Shown here piece after piece: positions 21,101-64,000 of a DNA stretch of 64,000 bases; position 1 is the first letter of the stretch, and each line of letters opens with the position of its first letter. The stretch is from contig NC_135244.1 in NCBI RefSeq assembly GCF_947623445.1, positions 14,198,860 through 14,262,859 on the forward strand, in the 5' to 3' direction. A program made the translations under genes and the position numbers. Source of the DNA: Clavelina lepadiformis (Eukaryota; Chordata; Ascidiacea; Aplousobranchia; Clavelinidae). Under the pieces are notes generated by a model that searched no databases, was not told where the DNA came from, and saw only the letters and a list, made by a program, of their open reading frames with translations.

Positions 21101-24100
21101 ACTAAGTATTCTTTCCTCAGTGTAAATTATAACCACATAAATGTATAACCTGCAGTTTAGGATATCATTACTATACGTTATTAAATCTATATTCTAACAT
21201 TATACCAATATAGTTGCTATACGCTACATATCAACCTAGTAATTTTTACCAACAGACGAAGGCGTGGTCATAGAACAACCAACACCTTGCACATACCATT
21301 CATGTACAGCCGAAATGCTCAAGTGCGCTGGTTCATTGGTGAAAGATGAAAATGGATGCGAAAAATGCGAATGCGCTGGTGAAGAACTTGTGTTATATTA
21401 AACCCTAGTGTTGAAAATACCCCGGTTTAGTGCTAACGAAAACCGACTGGTCAGATGACATAATATATAGGAGAGATCCTGCGGAAAGATTGCGGAAGTT
21501 AGAATCTGAAGACTTTACCTCCGTACTTTTTCAGATTAATATCGATTGATGGTATTGCGCAAATACCGCAACTAATTTCGAATTATTTGATTAATATAAT
21601 AACTATAAAATATTTAAATTTAACTTTATTGGGTTATAACCGATATATCGGCTAGCAACGTTCTTTCACAAAGAGTGTCCAACCACAAGCGCGTAATCTC
21701 ATCATTTTGATAAAGAATGTGCTTTTCTATAATCAGCGTTTAACTTGCGCTTCTGTAATGCAAAGTAATAATAATTTTCTTTAACTAATTGTATCTGCAG
21801 CTTTTGATGAGGATTTTGGAGTGGAACTACCCGCAGAGCCACTGGCTGAATCTACTGTTGACAAGTAGGTGATAGCTATTGGGGTGCGAACCGCTGCGAT
21901 GTTAGCAATGTCATTTACGTTTCATTGAATGATATCCGAAAACATTTTTCAAGGGGTCGTTGCATGCTGAAACCTGACGCTGGACCATGTCGGGGAAAGC
22001 ACCAACGATATTATTTTGATCGATCGGCCAACTCTTGTCAAAAATTTATCTATGGCGGTTGCCATGGAAATAATAACAATTTTCAAGTATCAAAGTTTAT
22101 TAAATTACAGATTGATTACGTTTTTAATACTTCAGTATATTAATCACAAAGATTTGTCTTTTTTCAAATGTTCTTTGCTTGTATAGACATTGGAAGAATG
22201 TAACGAAGTATGTTCAAAAAGGAAAAGATCTCAGGAACCATCCAAGGAGATTGCCTGTCCCTACCACGATTGCACTGCTGAAAAATTAGGTTGCCTTGGG
22301 GAACTGGCCAAAAATGAAAACGGATGTCCGCTGTGTAAATGTAAAGGTATAAATCTTTGTTTTACATGCATTTAAACATCATGCGGGGGAAATCCTACCT
22401 AATATTGATCAAGCTACAGTAGTAAAAAACTTGAAAAGGGCCAATTTAAATTTTAACTGCTAGAAGCCTAAATAATGAAACATGACAAATATTCAATTAT
22501 CTTCTTGGTGACAGAATTTTTAATACTTTTTAAAAATACTTTATTGTCCTTTAAAGTTTGAATAATAACATATATGCGCAACTGAAAGTTACGTTTCTAC
22601 GGTATTTTCCCCGACAATCACAAAGTATTCTTTCCTCAGTGAAAATTATAACCACATAAATGTGTAACCTGCAGTTTAGGATATCAGTACTATACGTTAT
22701 TAAATCTACCGTAAAACCTCTATTTCACCGCCACCTCTATTTGAACACCACCTCTAATAGAACACCACTTTTAGCGGCGGAATTGTATTAGCAGGTCTCT
22801 ACTGATAATTATACAATTGATTAAGTTTTCACAATCTAGCAGTTAAAGCAGCCATTTAAAAGATACCAACCAACATACCGGTAGTAACAATGCAGTATCA
22901 CGTTACAGTAAAATAGAGCGCCAACCTCTAATTGAACGTCACCTCTAATAGAACGCCACTTTTAAACAAGAGTTGAAAAATAGAGCGCCATGGCGGTGAA
23001 ATAGAGGTTTTACGGCATATTTTAATATTATATTAATATAATTGCTTTACGCTATATATCAACCTAGTAATTTTTACCAACAGACGAAGGCGTGGTCATA
23101 GAACAACCAACACCTTGCACATACCATTCATGTACAGCCGAAATGCTCAAGTGCGCTGGTTCATTGGCGAAAGATGAAAATGGATGCGAAAAATGCGAAT
23201 GCGCTGGTGAAGCACTTGTGTTATATTAAACCCTAGTGTTGAAAATACCCTGGTTTAGTTCTAACGAAAACCGACTGGTCAGATGACATAATATATAGGA
23301 GAGATCCCGCGGAAAGATTGCGGAAGTTAGAATCTGAAGACTTTACCTCCATACTTTTTCAGATTAATTAATATCGATTGATGGTATTGCGCAAATACCG
23401 CAACTAATTTCGAATTATTTGATTAATATAATAACTATATAAAATATTTATATTTAACTTTATTGGGTTATTGGCTAGCAACGTTCTTTCACAAGAGTGT
23501 CCAACCACAAGCGCGTAATCTCATCATTTTGATAAAGAATGTGCTTTTCTATAATCAGCATTTAACTTGCGCTTCTGTAAAACAAAGTAATAAGGATTTT
23601 CTTTAACTAATTGTATCTGCAGCTTTTGACGAGGATTTTGGAGTGGAACTACCCGCAGAGCCACTGGCTGAATCTACTGTTGACAAGTAGGTGATAGCTA
23701 TTGGGGTGCGAACCGCTGTGATGTTAGCAATGTCATTTACGTTTCATTGAATGATATCCGAAAACATTTTTCAAGGGGTCGTTGCATGTTGAAACCTGAC
23801 GCTGGACCATGTCGGGGAAAGCACCAACGATATTACTTTGATCGATCGGCCAACTCTTGTCAAAAATTTATCTATGGCGGTTGCCATGGAAATAATAACA
23901 ATTTTCAGGTAAAAATGCTTGTTTCATTATTTTATTACGTCATTACTGCTTAGAAGTGAGATCATTAAAATGTAATGAGTGGCAAGTTAAATGTTATATA
24001 TTATTGTTAAGACATATGAGGAATGCAATGTAGCGTGTGTGAAAGGAACTGTGAAAGCCCAAGAGCCGCAAGATCCAGTGCCATGCTTACTCCATGGTTG

Positions 24101-27100: not shown

Positions 27101-28542
27101 GAATGCGAAGGTAAGCTAGCATGGAATTAGACCATAAAATAAGTTACATGTAATTATAATGATATACTGTAACAATTAACATACTGTGTGAGAACACTTT
27201 AAATAAATTCAACCAATCCAATCACAAAGTTAGTTGTAAGATGCACAGTAGACCATACTATTTTTCTATTTAGTCGCTTTTACTGGACTATATTGTCCAT
27301 TCTATAGTATAACTTAGACAGTAACCCAAGTGGCTGCATTATTGTTTAGGTAATTGTCATTTGCAATCGCACTTTTGTTAGATTCTTTTAAAATCATTCA
27401 CAAACATGAAGGGTATCGCTTAAATATATGAATTTAAATTTGATAAAATATTACACAACTTCCGAAAGCCAAAATGGAAACACAATGTTTAGGAAAAGAA
27501 TACAGGGCTCGCTTTTACATAACACGATATTCTTGAGGAAACCTCTTTTACCTCTCTTTACCTCTCCCTGCCGCAGAACCAGTTGAAGAAGAGTTAGCTC
27601 TTACTAAATGTCAGGAGCAGAGAGAGTCGGCTTTGGCAATTGGGGAGGCGGTCCAGGACGGACCCTTTGCTCCAAAATGTCTGGAAGATGGATCATTTTC
27701 TCCTGTCCAATGCTATTGGGATGAATGTTGGTGTGTGGTAAATCTAGATGGAAAAGAAGTTCCGGGAACAAGGGTTGCCAATCAATATATGGAAACTTTA
27801 AACTGTGACGAGCCCGTTGTTGCTCCCCCCAAGCCATTGCCTGGTACATGAACAAACCACTTTTTCGGCATCACCATTTTTTGTATCTTGCACATTTTTT
27901 TGTTTCTGAAACAATTGGACATCAAGGCAATAATTTTCTTCATTTTTTTGTTTTTTATTTTCTTATGTATTCATGATAAACTCTGTGGCAAGCATGATAT
28001 TTTTTCTGTTTAAAAAGCTAAAATCTTATGCATGCAGGCAACACGTCATATAATTGCATGCAATCACCGGGTTTGTTTACTATACAGGCATCAGTAAAAA
28101 AGTATTATATAAAGATATCAATAAGAAAGGTTTTTACGTTAGTTAGGTTCATTTGGGGAGCATCTTTCAAGCTTTACTTTCTGATAGTGCGTTGCTCACA
28201 GTTTACTGGTTACTTACACTCTATAGTCTATACTATAGTATATAAGAAGAAATTCCATCTTCCTGCTTTTATATTTCAAAATGGCTTTCTTTCACCATTA
28301 ATTCTGTTTGAACTCAAATGCCCAGTATCATATTATTTGAAATGGTATTGGCTCTATAGGTTTCGCTTAAAGATTGTCAATCTGTTTTGCTTTACTTACG
28401 CTGACACACTCACGTTAAAACCTAAATAGAACAATCTAAAGAACTGTTATATTTTATGTGTGAAATCGAACATTCTTTTGCAGATATAGAAGTGGCCAGG
28501 CGTGAACTTGAGCTTGCTTTGAAGAAACTTGGTGTTGAGTAG
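18176..28542 (+). CDS. Secreted antistasin/Kunitz/thyroglobulin-1 multidomain protease inhibitor, 25 exons
   Basis: Predicted 917-aa secreted inhibitor. Exons: 18176-18221, 18329-18363, 18492-18512, 18719-18751, 18917-19034, 19738-19860, 20284-20347, 20437-20569, 20670-20829, 21256-21378, 21801-21864, 21954-22086, 22187-22346, 23084-23206, 23623-23686, 23776-23908, 24012-24174, 24282-24398, 24730-24796, 25363-25495, 25639-25813, 26585-26704, 26991-27110, 27577-27843, 28484-28542. Every junction is in phase. The signal peptide is MHRPFCICFLLAIVAG. Eleven modules share CTAEMLGC...NGCELCEC, the antistasin-type ending. Four Kunitz domains have six cysteines and GPCRGKHQRYYF, placing Arg at P1, which suggests trypsin-like targets. 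A thyroglobulin type-1 domain follows (SPVQC...CWCV), a fold that can inhibit cysteine proteases. The C-terminus is a short charged helix (EVARRELELALKKLG). Exon 3 is only 21 nt. Targets are unknown; defence or matrix roles are inference. Confidence 0.9.
19540..21057 (+). repeat. Inhibitor gene tandem cassette, unit A
   Basis: Unit of about 1.52 kb holding four exons: antistasin module (19738-19860), acidic linker (20284-20347), Kunitz part 1 (20437-20569), and Kunitz part 2 plus antistasin module (20670-20829). Exons and introns are almost identical to unit B, offset by 1,518 bp. The cassette starts and ends in the same splice phase, so copies can be added without breaking the frame. Confidence 0.9.
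21058..22578 (+). repeat. Inhibitor gene tandem cassette, unit B
   Basis: Second copy, with exons 21256-21378, 21801-21864, 21954-22086 and 22187-22346. It differs from unit A by scattered changes, for example GSLVKDENG in place of GSLAKDENG, and the Kunitz donor reads CAA-gt where unit A has CAG-gt. Confidence 0.9.
22579..23908 (+). repeat. Inhibitor gene tandem cassette, unit C (partial, MITE-bearing)
   Basis: Third copy. Near-identity to A and B holds through exons 23084-23206, 23623-23686 and 23776-23908, then stops abruptly at the end of the first Kunitz exon. The next intron and the exon at 24012-24174 are clearly diverged (TYEECNVACVKG against TLEECNEVCSKR). A 307-bp MITE sits in its first intron. 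Confidence 0.88.
22709..23015. mobile_element. MITE with perfect 25-bp terminal inverted repeats
   Basis: The 25 bases at 22709-22733 (CCGTAAAACCTC...) are the exact reverse complement of 22991-23015. The interior holds two related blocks with ACCTCTAATAGAAC. A TA lies just before the left end and another three bases after the right end; a target duplication is not certain. The matching intron positions in units A and B lack it, giving an empty-site comparison. Confidence 0.9.
25955..26144. repeat. Hairpin-forming intronic element
   Basis: The two halves are imperfect reverse complements. TTGTAATCGGCACAA at the left pairs with the right-end word TTGTGCTGATTACAA, and both inner arms carry GCAGAAATA and ACATGTTTCGG or ACATGTTTCGGA in inverted order. 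It lies in the intron between the exons ending at 25813 and starting at 26585. Confidence 0.75.
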
Positions 28543-37400: not shown

Positions 37401-40400
37401 TACTCAAGCTTCCCACTACGAAGCCGTAAGCTACTTTTTATTGGAAACCAGATACCTTATGTAAAGATGTAAAGTAAATTGGTTTACAGAAATGCCATAT
37501 TGAATTACCGGTACAAAGTACCCTTCGTAATCAGCTAGGACAACTCGGTCAAAATAAATAGGCTGTTCTATTGGGTTAAAAAGAAATTATTTGTTGAAAT
37601 ATACCTACACTTTTAACAAATGATAAATGTCATTTTTTCGAGCAGAATACACTGATCTACCAGACGAGTGGGAGAACATCTTGGATGGAAAAAATATCAA
37701 AATTTGGAAGCTACCATTGAAGAATTCAGATCGCACACAGTATAAAGGTTAAATGATTCTTGAGTTTTATTTAACCACTTAACTATTGTTACCTCATTTC
37801 GGATACTCTCATTTGCTTAATTCAATTAGTAATGGTTACAAGTTTATATCAGAAAATGCACATATCTTTTTAATAATCTTCATATTATTTTTAGTATTTG
37901 GCCGTTTTCATGATGTAAGTGCTCGCCAATTTTTTTTCGTACAAACGGATCTAGAATATCGTCGCAAATGGGATAAACTCGTTATAGACATCAGTGTTGT
38001 CGATGAAAATCAAACTACTGGAGAGGAAGTATTGAGATGGATATCATATTTTCCAGTAAATGTTTTCAAGCAATTTTATCTAGCAGACAATACTGTAATA
38101 TTGTTAATCACCCGGTTTTGTTGTTGTGAATAGACTTTCCTCATTTGTAGGTCAAGATCACCTTTAGTGACGAATATAGTTATTGCATGGCAATAACATG
38201 CCTATAATTTTCCACCATGTTGTAATAAAGTAAGAAAACATTGCCAGATTTATTTTTCAGTATCCATTTAAAGCAAGAGAATATGTATACATCAGAAGAC
38301 TAAAGGTAAATATATTGAGCAAATTTTTTTTAAATGTCTCTCAATGATAATTTATTTCAAGTTGCGATGTCAAAATGTTCAATTAAATGTACTCTTCTTG
38401 TTTATATATCTTCCCATTTTTTCTGATATAGCGAGTCTTGACTTTTATTCTGTTTTTAAGTGCTTTTAATTCCTTGGCACAAGTGCACTTTTCGTTCTTG
38501 CATTTGTTTCTTTTTAAAACCTTTCTACACTTCGATTTACGAGTCTTGCTTTTTTTGTTCTTTCTTCTCTTCTGGTGGGAATAACACAGCTTATTTTTAA
38601 TCAAGCACCCAAAAGTTTTACAAAACACATGCCTTAAAATATGAGGGTATAGTTTTAAAATCCTTCAATCACCTTTTTAGAATTTAACTTTTTCTTTCTG
38701 GACAACTTAGCTTTGAAGTGATCATTAACCTTTCTGCAATTTATAAAGTGTTATTTGTGATTTTATTTACTTATAACTCAGTATTACACACAAATTTCTT
38801 TTATTCACATAAAAATCTTAATCATACTATTACAAGATAGTCTTACTTTAAATTTTTTCGATGTAATTTAGCTTTAAGTGCCTTCCTTTTTAAGGATCCC
38901 AATACTGCAACTGTCTGCTTCTTAACTAATCTGTAACCCAAAGTATATTTATATACTGTAAGTTATGTTTTGCTGGTAATATACAAGGTTTCCACAAAGT
39001 TTTTCGACAAACTACATTAATAAGTCTTTTAAATTGTCCAAAGACTTTGTGCACATCTTGTCAATTTTCAAAGTTATGAAAAAGAAATTTACAAATTTTC
39101 TTATTTTAAAAATGTTAAAACTTGTATGACACAGTAAGTTGGAACATACCTTTTACCACTAAAACGATATTGACCATTTCGTTGTTTTAGCAAACCCATT
39201 TCAACCATCCATTTCAAAACATAAGAAAGCAAGCTTGCATTTTTGACATGATAACGTAATTGAATGTACCTGATAGATTGTATAAGTTCTGTTATTTGTG
39301 ATAACTGATAGCAAACACTACTGAATCAGCACTTACTTGGATATGGCGTCTTTCCCGGTTAAGTTGAATGGTTTCAAATCTCGAATGGCAGTTTTAACCA
39401 TTGCAATAAAAGTTGGTGATTTACCACTTGGAACTGGTTGATCCGTGTCAGTGGCCAACTGCCGAATCAGCTTACTTATCTTTTGTGTCATCTTTTTTGA
39501 TTCTTGTCTGCCACATGAGTCATGTCCATTCTCTTCAATTTCTTCTATGGCAAGTTTTGTTTCTTTACACTTTGCCATGGCACTTGGCATTGGAGCAACT
39601 TGCACAGTACTTTGAGCTTGCTTTTTCATTATATCCTTACCCTTCTTTTTCGTTTGTTGTTTGGCAAGACGTTTCAGTTGCTTGATTTTAATCTTTTTTA
39701 TGGTTGCTTTAGATAATAATTTCCATTTCCTGGAAGTTTTTTTGTTGCTTGACTTTGTTGATTTTGTTTTTCGCAAAACGGAGCCAACACTTGATGCTTT
39801 GGTGCTTCTTTTTCCTAATTTCTTTGACATTAACTGGTGTTGTTTTCTTAACTGTTTTTTTTTAACAGACTTTGCTTTACGCTTAATTGAAGCTTTCCTA
39901 CTTGACCTATGACCAACAGGATTATGAGATGAATTTTTAATTTTATTCTGTACTTGCCCTGCACTGGGAAATAAAATTCCCTCTTTTTTATACCCCACTG
40001 CCCTAGTTTTACTGGCTTCAGAAGTATTGGGACCTGCACTCACTCTAGGTGTTGAGGAGCTGTCTTTATCTTTTTCTCCTGTTTCACTTACCTCTCCAGT
40101 TGACTTACATTTTTTATGTTTACACACTCGAAAATAATGGCTTAACTCTTCATGTGATTTCTTTTTTCCTTGACTTTTGCATGAAGCTTGCTTAAATATC
40201 TGTTCCTTAATGTAGTTTTTTAGATTTTCGAGGCACTTTTGGCAGCATATGCAGTTATCTGACTGAGCTTGGCCAGCAGAAGTCGTTGGCAGACTCAAAT
40301 TGGTTATTGTTGGTGTCTTTTTGAGGACATACTTCAATAAAGATTTGCCTGCTCGAGCCTTTGCACGTTTTTTGATTGGTTTTCTTTTATCTGTATGAGC

Positions 40401-43400
40401 AGTTTGTTTCATTTTTCTTGCTTTCTTTGTCTTTTGCTTTGGCATGCTTTGTTCCAATGGATGCCTCGAATGTTTCAGTAACCTATGTCTTGACCGTACT
40501 TTGGCAATATTAGCTTGAGAGGAAGAAGATTTTCGATTAACTCCACAACATTCTTTGCAGTCGCAGAATACTTGTTTAATTCTTTCATTACTAGCCTTTT
40601 TTTGCACACTTTCTGCACAGTTAGAACTGTTTGTCGCAGTAGAGCCATTGGTTGAACTGCTGGGTGAAATGACAGAATTATTTTGCTGCTCCTCACTTTT
40701 CAGCAGAAAGCTCAAACCACTTTGACTACTGGTGCAAGTGCGCAACTCTTCTTTTCTTCGTTGTTCTGCACACTGTTTACAACTGCACTGATCTTTTGCC
40801 GTCTGTAATGCATTTGAATTGCTCACATTGTTAAGACTTTGAGTGGATGAAGGAAGACTGGTTACTAGAGATCCAAAAATGCATTCTGATGAACTCTTAC
40901 CCTTTCTTTTCTTAGAATATCTTACACCTGAACGTGTTTTACCTGGTTGCTTTAAAAAATTACTGACAAAAAATTTTTCATGCTCTTTTTTAGTCTTCCT
41001 TGATTTTCTAGACTTTTTTGGAGAGTTTTTTTTTCTTTTCATACCTTTGTTTTTCCAGCACAAGTCAATACCACTGCACACTTTCCTGTGAACAATTTCT
41101 GTTTTTGTTTAAAAGTTTGTTACACAGCAATTTAAAAGTTATTGTTAAATGAATTGGGATTATTAAAGAAAACAATGGCCCATTGTTTAACACTATGGTC
41201 TTTATGAAGCGTATACACATACAAAATCTAAAGAAAAACCAAAATAAATTTCATAACACACACTAACATATTTCAAATATCATTCAAACTTCATTTTCAT
41301 AAAATTATTATCACATTTTTTTATTTGCAGGTGTTGCAGTCCTCAAATGTTATGGCAATTCTGGCAAGGTGATGACCTCAGTTAAAGTACAAAAGATAAA
41401 TTTTCATGTTGTAAAAATTGTTTGTATATGTTCTTTTCTGTAATATATACTGAAGAATAATGTTTCATCTCACTATTGCTTACCTTTATTATCATCAGAT
41501 TCCCTTTAAAGGTCATAAATTTATTCGGTTTACTTAATCAAGAGCATTATGCTATACACATTACGCACTATTTTACAGATCAGTTGATCACCCCAAATGC
41601 GTTACCAACAAGAACCATGTGCGTGTTCCTCTTTATATATCTGAGATGGTGATAAAACCACACAAAACAATAGATGAGCCAGGCCTTGATTACCTTTTGA
41701 CATACTGTGATGATCCACAAACATCGCTTCCTACAAGAGTTTCATCATGGGTGGTGACGACAGGTGCAATACTATATTTGTAACATGCTAGCGTAACTAT
41801 GCATTTGAAATTTGTCTTAATAACTCCTTGGGTTTATTGTCTGCAACCGATAGGTCTTTACTTCTTCGTAGCTGTAAAAATTACTTTCAAGCTTACGTTA
41901 AAGTTTTGTTGGAATTAAAACCTTTAACTTGTAATGAAAAGTTAGAATAAAACTAGTTTTTCATATAAATACAGACTTACAGCAACTAATTGCGTAATAT
42001 GCTCTGTACAAGAAACACAATTAACCCAAGACAGGTTAGCTAACGAGACAGCAAACAAAACCTACGTAAACGCTGAACGAACCAATCTATGAGAAGAAAT
42101 AGGTACCGGTGTAACCGAAAATTCTTGCCTTCTGGTGGCAGGCTGTTTCCCCACATTCACTGTGAACCACGACACCATCAGTAAAACCCAAGAAAGCAAT
42201 TTATTGTATTGAACAACCCCAACGACCAAAACCAAACCGACCCGATTAATTCAATTAACAGCGGAGTTTATAGAATGCAAAAGGTGAGGTGCCAAACTAA
42301 AACACCGTGAAGTAATCATCACACAGCAAGTTGAGAACTAACGGATTACAAAACAGTAAAACATAAGATACTATAAATAAAATGTGACATATTTTCGTTA
42401 CACCGGCAGTTAAACATAAAATCGATCACGAGATCGCGTCCCCGCAATGTCCAACGCACAATTCCACAGCAATCACTTCTTGTAAAAATTTTATGGGCTA
42501 AGTGCCCAAACTTCCGCACTGTGACAGTTCCTTTGCCCACCAGCTATCCAGGTAGAGATTGAGCGAATGTGAATGTCCTGATGATGATGAACATCGGTAT
42601 GGAGTTGGTGAAAGGTATGCAAAATTGATATCAGCTCATACAAGACATTTAGCATCATCATCTCCCGCCAACTCGGTGAGAAGTTTATAGACTTCAGTGC
42701 AAGTCTTAATCGTACCTCAGATTACTCAGTTATTATGTTCAACATGAAGCTACAGATTGTAGTGTGACTATTATGCTATCCCTTAGTCGGTAATGTAACA
42801 TCTAATTCTCTTAGAGCTCATATTCAAAAGTGGATTTTTGGCCTAAAAATACACATTTTCCTATTTTTCATTCCGATTTTTATTTGCATTTCCCACCCGA
42901 CCTGGAACTTTAAAAGGCTCAAACTGATTGATAGTCTAGGGGAATTCCAAGTCTAAAAAACTACACCAACCATGCTGCCCTCTGATTGGTCTAAGCAGGT
43001 TTTTTTAAAGCCCTACAGAAAAATTTAACGATATCAGAAAATAAAGAAATCTTAATTTCTTACCCATACACCTCCTTAATGTGGCGAACAGAAAATAACA
43101 GTAAAGGAACGGACTATATTGAAATGACATTATAATTTATAGGAGCTTAAAGCTTACGTCAATACAGTAATTCATTTAATTGAAACGTAGTCGCGCGCTG
43201 TCACAGGCTGCGCTTTTCTGTATCACCGTGCAGACACTGCAGACTGAATGGAGTTGGGAATAATGAATTGATAAAAAAGTTAGTGAGTTGTCTGCTTGTT
43301 GTTATTGCACTACCTGACCGGTGACCAGGAACTCTGTATTGTATCGAAATTGAGTTAAATAATTCTCATGGTCTCCTTAATTAAGCTGACCCTTGAAGTA

Positions 43401-60900: not shown

Positions 60901-63763
60901 GTACAGTATAAAGAAAATGGAAATTGTTTAACACTTGACGAAAGGTGTTTGTCGTTTACGGGAATTTAAAGCGAAAAATACAAAAACCTGATTATAAGTT
61001 TGTGTAATATTGCATTTAGTGATGTCGTGTTTTTCTGAAACTTTGACTTTACCACAAATAAGAACAAAACACTGTAGTTCCGTATTGGGGCGTTGGCATG
61101 ACGTTTACGTTTTAATTACCCTCCACTGGAATGTATACATGTTACGTCTTGGCGAAGGAAGCCGTCGCATCAGCCAACGTAGACTGGTCAAAATAAGAAC
61201 TGAAAGCGACCCGTTTCCAAATCAAGGGGCGTAATAAATGGAGATTAAATTACAGTTGAGCGTTTTAGTATCCCGGAAACCAATACGTGTTGAATTCAGT
61301 AAAACGCTTTGTAATTTCCTTCGCCGCGGTATTACAATCAAGGGACTCAAAATCGTTTTACAGAGCGACCTTAATCGTCATATTTGAGAATTTTCGACTG
61401 ACCAGGAAATTAACCGCTTATATTTTTAATTACGTCACGAACCATCCTACTTTTGTTAATTTGCTGTACCTCGATGATATCATGAAGTGTTGTGTAATGT
61501 TCTATAAATGAACGATGACAATATACACTTCGCCACGATGACATATTAAGCTAAATATCTGTCTTGCGACACAAGTTGACTTTAACGTCGAAAAATCGTT
61601 GTAGCCTAATTACGTCTGGAAATCATTGCCAATGGCCATGTCACGGTTAGGGCAAGTGAATCTACGAAGCAGAACACAGAAATCTATAATATGTTATATG
61701 TTTCCGGCTTTTTAGTTTTTACAAACGTGTTTATGCGAAAGCCGTGCTCGTGTGTTGTTCCTTGCATACTACGGAGTTTGTCTAGTATCGCTAAACCTGC
61801 AGAATTTGATGAATTCCAAATGATATTGTGTCAAGTAAAGTTAAACTCTTACTAAGTGCGTAAAATCGTGCGACTTCGTGTAATATAATTAATGTAGACG
61901 TAAGTCAGGTCGGTAATACCATGTCGTACTTTACATTCTATACACTGTGTTTACAATAGTTTTACGTACACCCTGTCCTCCTGCTATAAATACAGGTCGG
62001 ACTGGTCGGTATGTGAGGCGGCATTAGACAAAATTGAGTTCATTGCGTGCGACGTCTTTTCTGGTTGCAATGCACATTGGATTTCATATTGACATATTTG
62101 TTTTGTTTGTCAGTTGAAATTTTACAAATTTACCGGCGGCGTTAAAATGGAAGGAACTGGCGTTTTATTTTTACATCTGCATGACATTAGTTGACCGCAA
62201 GTGTTCAATTCTGACAGAAGGAGGTGGAAACGTGCCGACATCATGTCAAAATTAGAACAATATGAGCGGAACAACACATTTAAACTGCTAATAATCAACA
62301 TTGCTCAAATAGAATCAACTGCTTTGTGAGTATGCTTTTCCTTACAGCGAGGAAAAGCTTCCTTTGTCGCTGGTCACGTGATAACCAATGGTTTTACAAA
62401 TTCGCTGCAAACAAGCAAAAATTTCTATGCCTGTATTTAACCGCCGGTTCTCTTAAAAGTTTTGCACTGTTTTAAATGAAAGTGAAAGGAATACCAACTG
62501 TTGTTAATATTGATTTTTTGCATAAAGAAGTGGATGTAGAACCGTTGTGCCTGACAGAATTATTGCGTATAGTGCCTCCGCGATGTTGTCCAAAACATGT
62601 ATTTTTAGTTTTCTCGACCGGAAACTTTTTGCCTGCGGCCATAGCGAATATTTAACAGTAAACAAAGTACGGTCTACGTCGGACTTATTTTGATAGAAAA
62701 GTTGTTTTTTCTTGGCTCGAAGACAAATTTGTTTCATTTGAATGAGGTTTCATCTATAACGGAAAACGATTTTCGCCCAGTCATCTGATCAGTATAAGGT
62801 GTGAATTTGCTAACGTTGATTGCCGGTTACTACCAACGCAGCTGTCCATTTGCCGGGTTGCGATATGTGGATTGCGAAATCCTAAGGCAGCAAATCGAAT
62901 TAAATCGCATACCCAACAAAGCCGGTTGACATGCATGGGACGGCTGCTATTATGACGAACTCAAATCGGATTTCTTTTGACAGTAATAATACCGTGAATA
63001 ATGTAAGCGCAATATGGCAGCATGCAAAGTAAGATATCCGTTTCTTTTCTGCGAACACCCTTCGCAAACCCGATCGTATTAGCTGTGCTATTGTGCAACA
63101 AGCTCCGGGGTACGTCCTGTTAACTGGATTGCACCAGAAGACGGGAAGGAAAACTGCCATTAATTAAACGTGATCCCGTTCGGGCGCCAGTGTATTCCTT
63201 TCTGTAATTCCCTCTCTTTTTTACACGACAGGATATCTTAGCTGCGCAGTCCAACGTGCTGCTGGTGTTTTCCACCATCCGTATAAGCATATCCCGTATG
63301 TGCTGGATTAATAACAAGGAATCACGATTTTGACGGCACATTTACAAATCACACATTTTTATATATGCTATAGGATCCCCATTAAACCCGTAACTAGGTT
63401 ATTTATTAGATAGTACCTAGGTAGATACAGTTATTGCACGCGCAGCTTTTCGTCGCTTTTGTTAGGCGCGGTTCACATTTTTATTAGCCGTACAGCATCA
63501 TGGTACCCGTATTAACTTATTTCTCTAAATTTCCGTTCGTTTGTTTTGTAGTGTTGGACATGAACGTCACTTTATGGCAATTTCTTCTTGAGCTTCTGAT
63601 GGATCCTTCGGCGAACAGTCATCTAATCAGTTGGACCTCCACCGATGGAGAATTCAAACTTCATAACTCGGAAGAAGTGGCCAGACTCTGGGGCCTGCGT
63701 AAAAATAAGACTAATATGAACTACGACAAACTAAGCAGAGCTCTTCGTTATTATTACGACAAG
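54913..63763 (+). CDS. ELK-class ETS transcription factor, first three coding exons (3' end outside window)
   Basis: ETS factors bind GGAA sites; the ELK class acts with SRF and is switched on by MAP kinase phosphorylation. Exons 54913-55063, 59545-59685 and 63552-63763 join in phase. The last holds the ETS domain from [11 protein letters not shown] through [32 protein letters not shown] to [11 protein letters not shown] and stops at the donor AAG-gtaagc, so the end of the domain and any SRF-binding or activation regions lie beyond the window. [20 protein letters not shown] is typical of ELK1/3/4. Vertebrate ELKs begin the ETS domain within a few residues of the N-terminus; here about 100 residues precede it, Glu/Gln/Met-rich with a possible nuclear signal (LEKRI). 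An internal ATG at 63561, just before NVTLWQ, would give the classical short form. The two introns are 4.5 and 3.9 kb. Confidence 0.88.
55064..59544 (+). other. First long intron of the ELK-class gene
   Basis: 4.5 kb with few repeats and many ETS-type cores: GCTTCCGGTT (about 55608), ACCGGAAATA (about 56289), ACGGAAGTGACG (57504-57515), CACTTCCTG at 58126-58134, 58520-58528 and 59175-59183. Open frames such as 55391-55678 have no supporting splice sites. Regulatory content is likely but not demonstrated. Confidence 0.45.
59686..63551 (+). other. Second long intron of the ELK-class gene
   Basis: 3.9 kb without a supported exon. It contains a TATA box at 61985-61992 and further GGAA/TTCC words, for example TCTTCCGTTC near 60123 and TTTCCGGAACC near 60732. 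Confidence 0.45.
61985..61992 (+). promoter_or_regulatory. Candidate internal TATA box for a short ELK-class isoform
   Basis: TATAAATA, set in a GC-richer context, lies about 1.57 kb upstream of the ETS exon. Transcripts starting about 30 bases downstream could use the ATG at the front of the ETS domain. This is a motif match only. Confidence 0.3.
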
Positions 63764-64000
63764 GTAAGCGAGATTTATAAGTTGCAAATTTATTATGTTT
63801 AAAAAGTGGAAAGGGTAACCTTGTTTGGAATTGTTCCTCTGAGAGAAATGTAATAAAGAAAAGCAGAAACGGGTTTAGCTGCTCTGTCAGTGATGCATGT
63901 TAATGAGATTAAATAATGTGGAGCAGTCATATAGGCATGATCCCTTATCCGATAGCTTTGCGGTTCACGTGGTGGAAATGATGTTTGTGGTTTCATGCCT

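Follow-up and report, generated by a model that had tools for sequence, protein, structure and literature searches.

The 64-kb window of the Clavelina lepadiformis genome considered here (the whole stretch of 64,000 nucleotides that was analysed) contains a genuine, spliced gene for a protein with a linker-histone (H15) domain, which is already annotated but unnamed, is unusual in its layout and lies nested within an intron of another gene. The product is, in our view, probably a chromatin protein of a tunicate family, in which clusters of cysteines would be capable of binding metal or of forming disulfides. The gene is read on the minus strand and composed as follows, all coordinates being positions within the window.

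38383..41042, minus strand: whole coding sequence from joined frames, five exons, 719 amino acids (aa)
39337..41042, minus strand: exon 1, covering residues 1-568 plus part of 569, with the Cys-rich basic N-terminal part and the first half of H15; donor GTAAGT
39150..39269, minus strand: exon 2, second half of H15
38847..38930, minus strand: exon 3, basic tail
38673..38733, minus strand: exon 4, basic tail
38383..38571, minus strand: exon 5, encoding basic tail, the CTC motif and a predicted C-terminal helix plus beta-hairpin; 719 or 718 aa according to the choice at its NAGNAG acceptor
39150..39422, minus strand: H15 winged helix, residues ~541-609, with intron 1 inside (PF00538, structure model, PDB alignment)
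40770..40787, minus strand: Cys cluster 1, CSCKQC
40545..40565, minus strand: Cys cluster 2, CDCKECC
40233..40253, minus strand: Cys cluster 3, CICCQKC, with a pair of its Cys aligned as CxxC across the three long family members
39579..39605, minus strand: VQVAPMPSA motif, with LQIAPMPRA as its counterpart in both Ciona proteins
38479..38487, minus strand: CTC motif, present in each of the four members whose C-terminus is complete
38389..38442, minus strand: predicted C-terminal beta-hairpin
38351..38356, minus strand: AATAAA, 26 nt past the stop codon

The five exons, separated by GT-AG introns, join in phase at every junction, as the preliminary description of this DNA had proposed for an antisense gene of 719 residues. 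The best protein match of the product is the NCBI entry for the uncharacterized C. lepadiformis LOC143459347 isoform X2 (P0001), which at 718 aa is identical to our model except for one Lys, and this lone difference maps to the acceptor of exon 5, where CAGAAG offers two acceptors one codon apart. The NAGNAG acceptor (CAGAAG at 38569-38574, minus strand) thus probably gives rise to two isoforms differing by one Lys, of which we infer the 719-aa form to be LOC143459347 isoform X1. NCBI isoform models rest on RNA sequencing. The composition of the protein (K 20.1%, R 6.7%, Ser 12%, Ala 5.7%, Pro 2.6%, with 23 Cys) could raise the suspicion of a low-complexity Lys-rich frame, or of mis-joined exons resembling H15 by chance, since Lys makes up 20% and Ser 12% of the residues. 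However, the open frame of exon 1 runs for 591 codons, far beyond the longest of 209 in 30 simulated 64-kb windows, the NCBI model agrees, the H15 domain and the C-terminus are kept in relatives, and relatives read across the junctions. We therefore rejected this explanation, the probability of which is negligible.

A hidden Markov model search placed the joined protein above the PF00538 cut-off, in agreement with the earlier claim that the exon 1/2 junction rebuilds an H15 domain, and structure prediction modelled the region as a winged helix, supported by alignment to the PDB. A PDB profile search with a five-row alignment (the first row being the exon-5 piece and the others full-length) returned 12 sequences at E <= 1, all of histone H5 (including one chimera) or H1.0. 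At E <= 0.001 Foldseek found nothing similar to the complete model, and an NCBIfam search yielded nothing useful. One alternative is a winged helix of the SAMD1/KAT6A kind, in which the domain, instead of working as a linker histone, would recognise a DNA feature while the remainder of the protein recruits regulators. The fold does tie with these proteins by structure, but there is no sequence match; the PDB sequence hits named as winged helices are H5 and H1.0 and neither SAMD1 nor KAT6A, Pfam assigns PF00538, and two other H15 proteins of the same genome that lack the wing (L003 and L004, described below) still score well as PF00538. We regard this alternative as unlikely.

Relatives were sought by three sequence searches, in which 765, 502 and 7,989 candidates were scored; searches of this kind depend on shared 5-residue words and restrict length, and in the last one scoring was confined to the candidates with the most words in common. 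The first, with residues 540-719, found P0001 and P0002, the latter a 568-aa protein on a 1,803-nt contig with 52% identity over the searched region. The P0002 frame continues through the positions of all four Clavelina junctions, so that its source is probably a transcript. The second search found P0003, a 453-aa frame ending in EAISK; the unspliced window there reads DAISK followed by a stop, which suggests that another species has this exon boundary too. The profile search over 7,989 candidates found Ciona savignyi H2YWB6 (P0004, E 8e-58, 299 aa) and Ciona intestinalis F6SSF8 (P0005, 4e-34, 202 aa, a model stopping soon after H15), together with P0006 (E 5e-29) and P0007 (E 1e-26). The possibility of an orphan gene was accordingly rejected by this profile search, and the relatives in other tunicates that the preliminary description had suggested looking for do exist in both Ciona species. 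Among the 765, 502 and 7,989 scored candidates no relative outside the tunicates was named, and the named members of the family are all tunicate. Within the C. lepadiformis genome (scans covered 209.06 Mb in 95 contigs), H2YWB6 gave four matches, namely exons 5, 1 and 2 of the gene and a weak one at L009 (E 4.7e-5), which points to a single family locus as seen with the C. savignyi protein as the only query. A tblastn search of a plasmid collection with P0002 gave no match and was uninformative, and no description of the family was recognised among the literature matches listed, none of the papers searched containing the five accession terms and most subscription papers lying outside that search.

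The six complete H15 domains of the family are 43-81% identical to one another and 20-36% identical to four other H15s of the same genome and the globular domain of H5 (GH5). They form a clade with support of 95/97 in an H15 tree and have in common PxPSxxxPT[FY]IxMVKTAIRDL and LKW, all six showing one divergent type of domain. The GVGxxG wing loop is a hallmark of H1; it is absent from all six, as well as from L003 and L004, and present in GH5, L001 and L002. Taking as DNA contacts eight GH5 residues whose list and numbering we assume, the positions aligned with K52 and R73 hold a basic residue in 6/6 members, that aligned with R47 in 5/6 and that aligned with K40 in 3/6; the counterpart of K69, paired across an alignment gap, is basic in 5/6 and is Ser in Clavelina. 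With this partial conservation and no GVGxxG wing, the domain likely binds DNA or nucleosomes, perhaps with a geometry other than that of H5.

Conservation extends beyond the domain. In the four members whose C-terminus is complete (P0001, P0002, P0004 and P0006), CTC is present and the sequence ends in TRY[IV]R..GKIYK, and in two prediction runs sharing sequences the C-terminal helix was modelled with a predicted local distance difference test score (pLDDT) of 61-74 and 68, and the beta-hairpin with one of 89-92 and 80-94. As a candidate known motif for this C-terminus, phmmer with a 41-residue piece of P0004 offered only ribosomal eL24 (E 1.3-1.5), which was not accepted. Ahead of H15 lie 540 less basic residues, and of all members only the three long ones (P0001, P0002 and P0003) were seen to have this Cys-rich N part. 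CxCxxC and CxxC are kept in all three, with the alignment deciding whether CxCxxC falls opposite Clavelina cluster 1 or cluster 2; FPSAG and LL[KR]YVLK occur in 3/3 and FLKQPxKTRSG in 2/3, and 43 of the 350 ungapped columns are identical across the three. Identity is more frequent in the Cys columns (5/11 vs 38/339 others; Fisher p 0.006), which speaks for the chromatin reading. An APMPxA motif is common to Clavelina and both Ciona proteins.

Several observations weigh against the reading as a chromatin protein of one tunicate family. P0002 and P0007, like the Clavelina protein, score above the PF00538 cut-off, in favour of the reading, but P0005 reaches 21.8 bits against the required 22.4, PF00538 is not among the matches listed at E <= 1 for P0004 and P0006, and P0003 carries the first part of H15 only (10.2 bits). 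The counterparts of GH5 R42 and K85 are kept in 0/6 members and that of R94 in 1/6. In the structural comparison the C-terminus of an archaeal MCM and bacterial regulators of the Fur type reach tied Z values, and a winged helix is by itself no proof of a chromatin role. Outside the Cys, moreover, the three N parts align poorly, and the excess of identical Cys columns rests on an aligner that itself somewhat favours the pairing of Cys.

The nuclear basic proteins of sperm provide another rival explanation, according to which the gene would encode a cysteine-containing protamine-like protein, made in late spermatids, that would condense the DNA of sperm and be secured by disulfides. Indeed, H15, basic tails and Cys occur together, and the C. 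savignyi relative has 38.8% lysine plus arginine and 5 Cys. Tunicate H1-related sperm proteins and cysteine-containing H1-like sperm proteins are cited in PMC11607694. The H1-like TD02 is high in Ciona testis and stains the nuclei of late spermatids and sperm (PMC11592721), and a contig from Botryllus whose best homologue is Histone H1.0 is 944-fold up in fertile colonies (PMC4523013). TD02 and the contig, considered here by description, may each belong to the family or represent a different H1. On the other hand, Arg is low for a protamine (6.7% in Clavelina, 11.4% in P0002 and 12.4% in P0004), the long, less basic N part with its shared short motifs is unlike protamines, and two proteins of the same genome fit the protamine-like type better.

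G000:C2:20128883-20129086, minus strand: L004, 201-aa single-frame H15 protein with an Arg/Lys-rich tail, R 23.4%, K 22.4%
G000:C5:22346168-22346458, plus strand: L003/L009, 127-aa H15 protein, R 13.4%, K 22.8%
G000:C2:17545463-17545582, minus strand: L005, half an H15 domain in an exon-like frame

Both L003 and L004 have an H15 above the PF00538 cut-off and look like protamine-like proteins, L004 being a candidate for a main sperm protamine-like protein of Clavelina. The H15 of L003/L009 shares RYIxxRYxVRND and a helix-3 Trp with the Ciona relatives, and its grouping with the family in the H15 tree has no more than 82/83 support. We hold the sperm explanation to be somewhat unlikely, and it ranks behind that of a chromatin protein. 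As to the remaining loci, L005 is perhaps a further spliced linker-histone gene, and L001 contains repeated SPKK.

Returning to the chromatin protein that we favour, we infer an architectural role in the nucleus from the observed gene model, H15, relatives and conserved C-terminus. Conserved basic residues would hold H15 on nucleosomal or linker DNA, Lys-rich flanks on both sides of the domain would neutralise DNA, and the hairpin conserved at the C-terminus would probably serve as a partner-binding element. The CxCxxC, CxxC and CTC clusters may hold a metal such as zinc or join molecules by disulfides, whereas the long N-terminal part could be either an addition to a shorter Ciona-like core or an element lost in Ciona. 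More speculatively, and with low confidence, one could envisage a tunicate class of chromatin linker proteins combining a divergent H15, conserved Cys clusters and the hairpin, in which metal or disulfides would cross-link the molecules bound to nucleosomes and the Clavelina-type N part adds further sites. Tunicates, the vertebrates' sister group, serve as a reference for the linker-histone origin of sperm proteins. A family with its own conserved C-terminus, common to Ciona and Clavelina, is testable in Ciona and could reveal whether a linker histone became a cross-linking or a recruiting chromatin protein.

The host gene is encoded on the plus strand, and two of its exons flank the nesting intron.

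38261..38305, plus strand: exon of the host START gene, YPFKAREYVYIRRLK, upstream of the nesting intron
41331..41368, plus strand: exon of the host START gene, VLQSSNVMAILA(R), on the downstream side of the nesting intron; exon end placed by visual inspection of the donor

The intron between them (38306-41330, plus strand) encloses the entire antisense coding span. The joined host exons match PF01852 (START) at E 2.1e-14 and, in the PDB, phosphatidylcholine transfer protein (PC-TP) at E 8.8e-19, PC-TP being the closest among solved structures. The proposed nesting thus holds, within one intron of a PC-TP-like START-domain gene, and the label STARD7 given to the host presumably fits. In a scan of the genome for the START family the window was not listed, although the joined exons match PF01852, perhaps because the host is split into small exons. 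Elsewhere in the window, all on the plus strand, lie a Kunitz exon (21862-22140, PF00014, E 5.4e-17), a thyroglobulin type-1 exon (27537-27848, PF00086, E 8.4e-14) and an ETS-domain exon (63488-63799, PF00178, E 3.9e-28).

How, then, does the protein compare with known systems? A canonical linker histone consists of a short N tail, H15 and a C tail rich in Lys, Ala and Pro. The Clavelina protein has the same PF00538 domain, above cut-off, as histones H5 and H1.0; in contrast to these, its H15 lies near the C-terminus of 719 aa, behind an N part of 540 residues, lacks GVGxxG and is accompanied by little Ala (5.7%) and Pro (2.6%), by 23 Cys and a C-terminal hairpin, and by a division into five exons. 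The part of the preliminary description that called the layout unlike canonical linker histones consequently stands, while the suggestion of uniqueness does not, given the NCBI entry and the Ciona relatives. SAMD1 and KAT6A possess other domains that Pfam does not find in the Clavelina protein. Tunicate H1-related protamine-like sperm proteins, which are cited in PMC11607694, likewise combine H15 with basic tails, and differ from the Clavelina protein in its low Arg and long, motif-bearing N-terminal part. The H15 domain-containing proteins of Ciona, H2YWB6 and F6SSF8, are without the Cys-rich N-terminal extension, unlike Clavelina; their H15s are 64% and 62% identical to that of Clavelina, APMPRA occurs in both, and H2YWB6 has the same C-terminus with CTC and hairpin.
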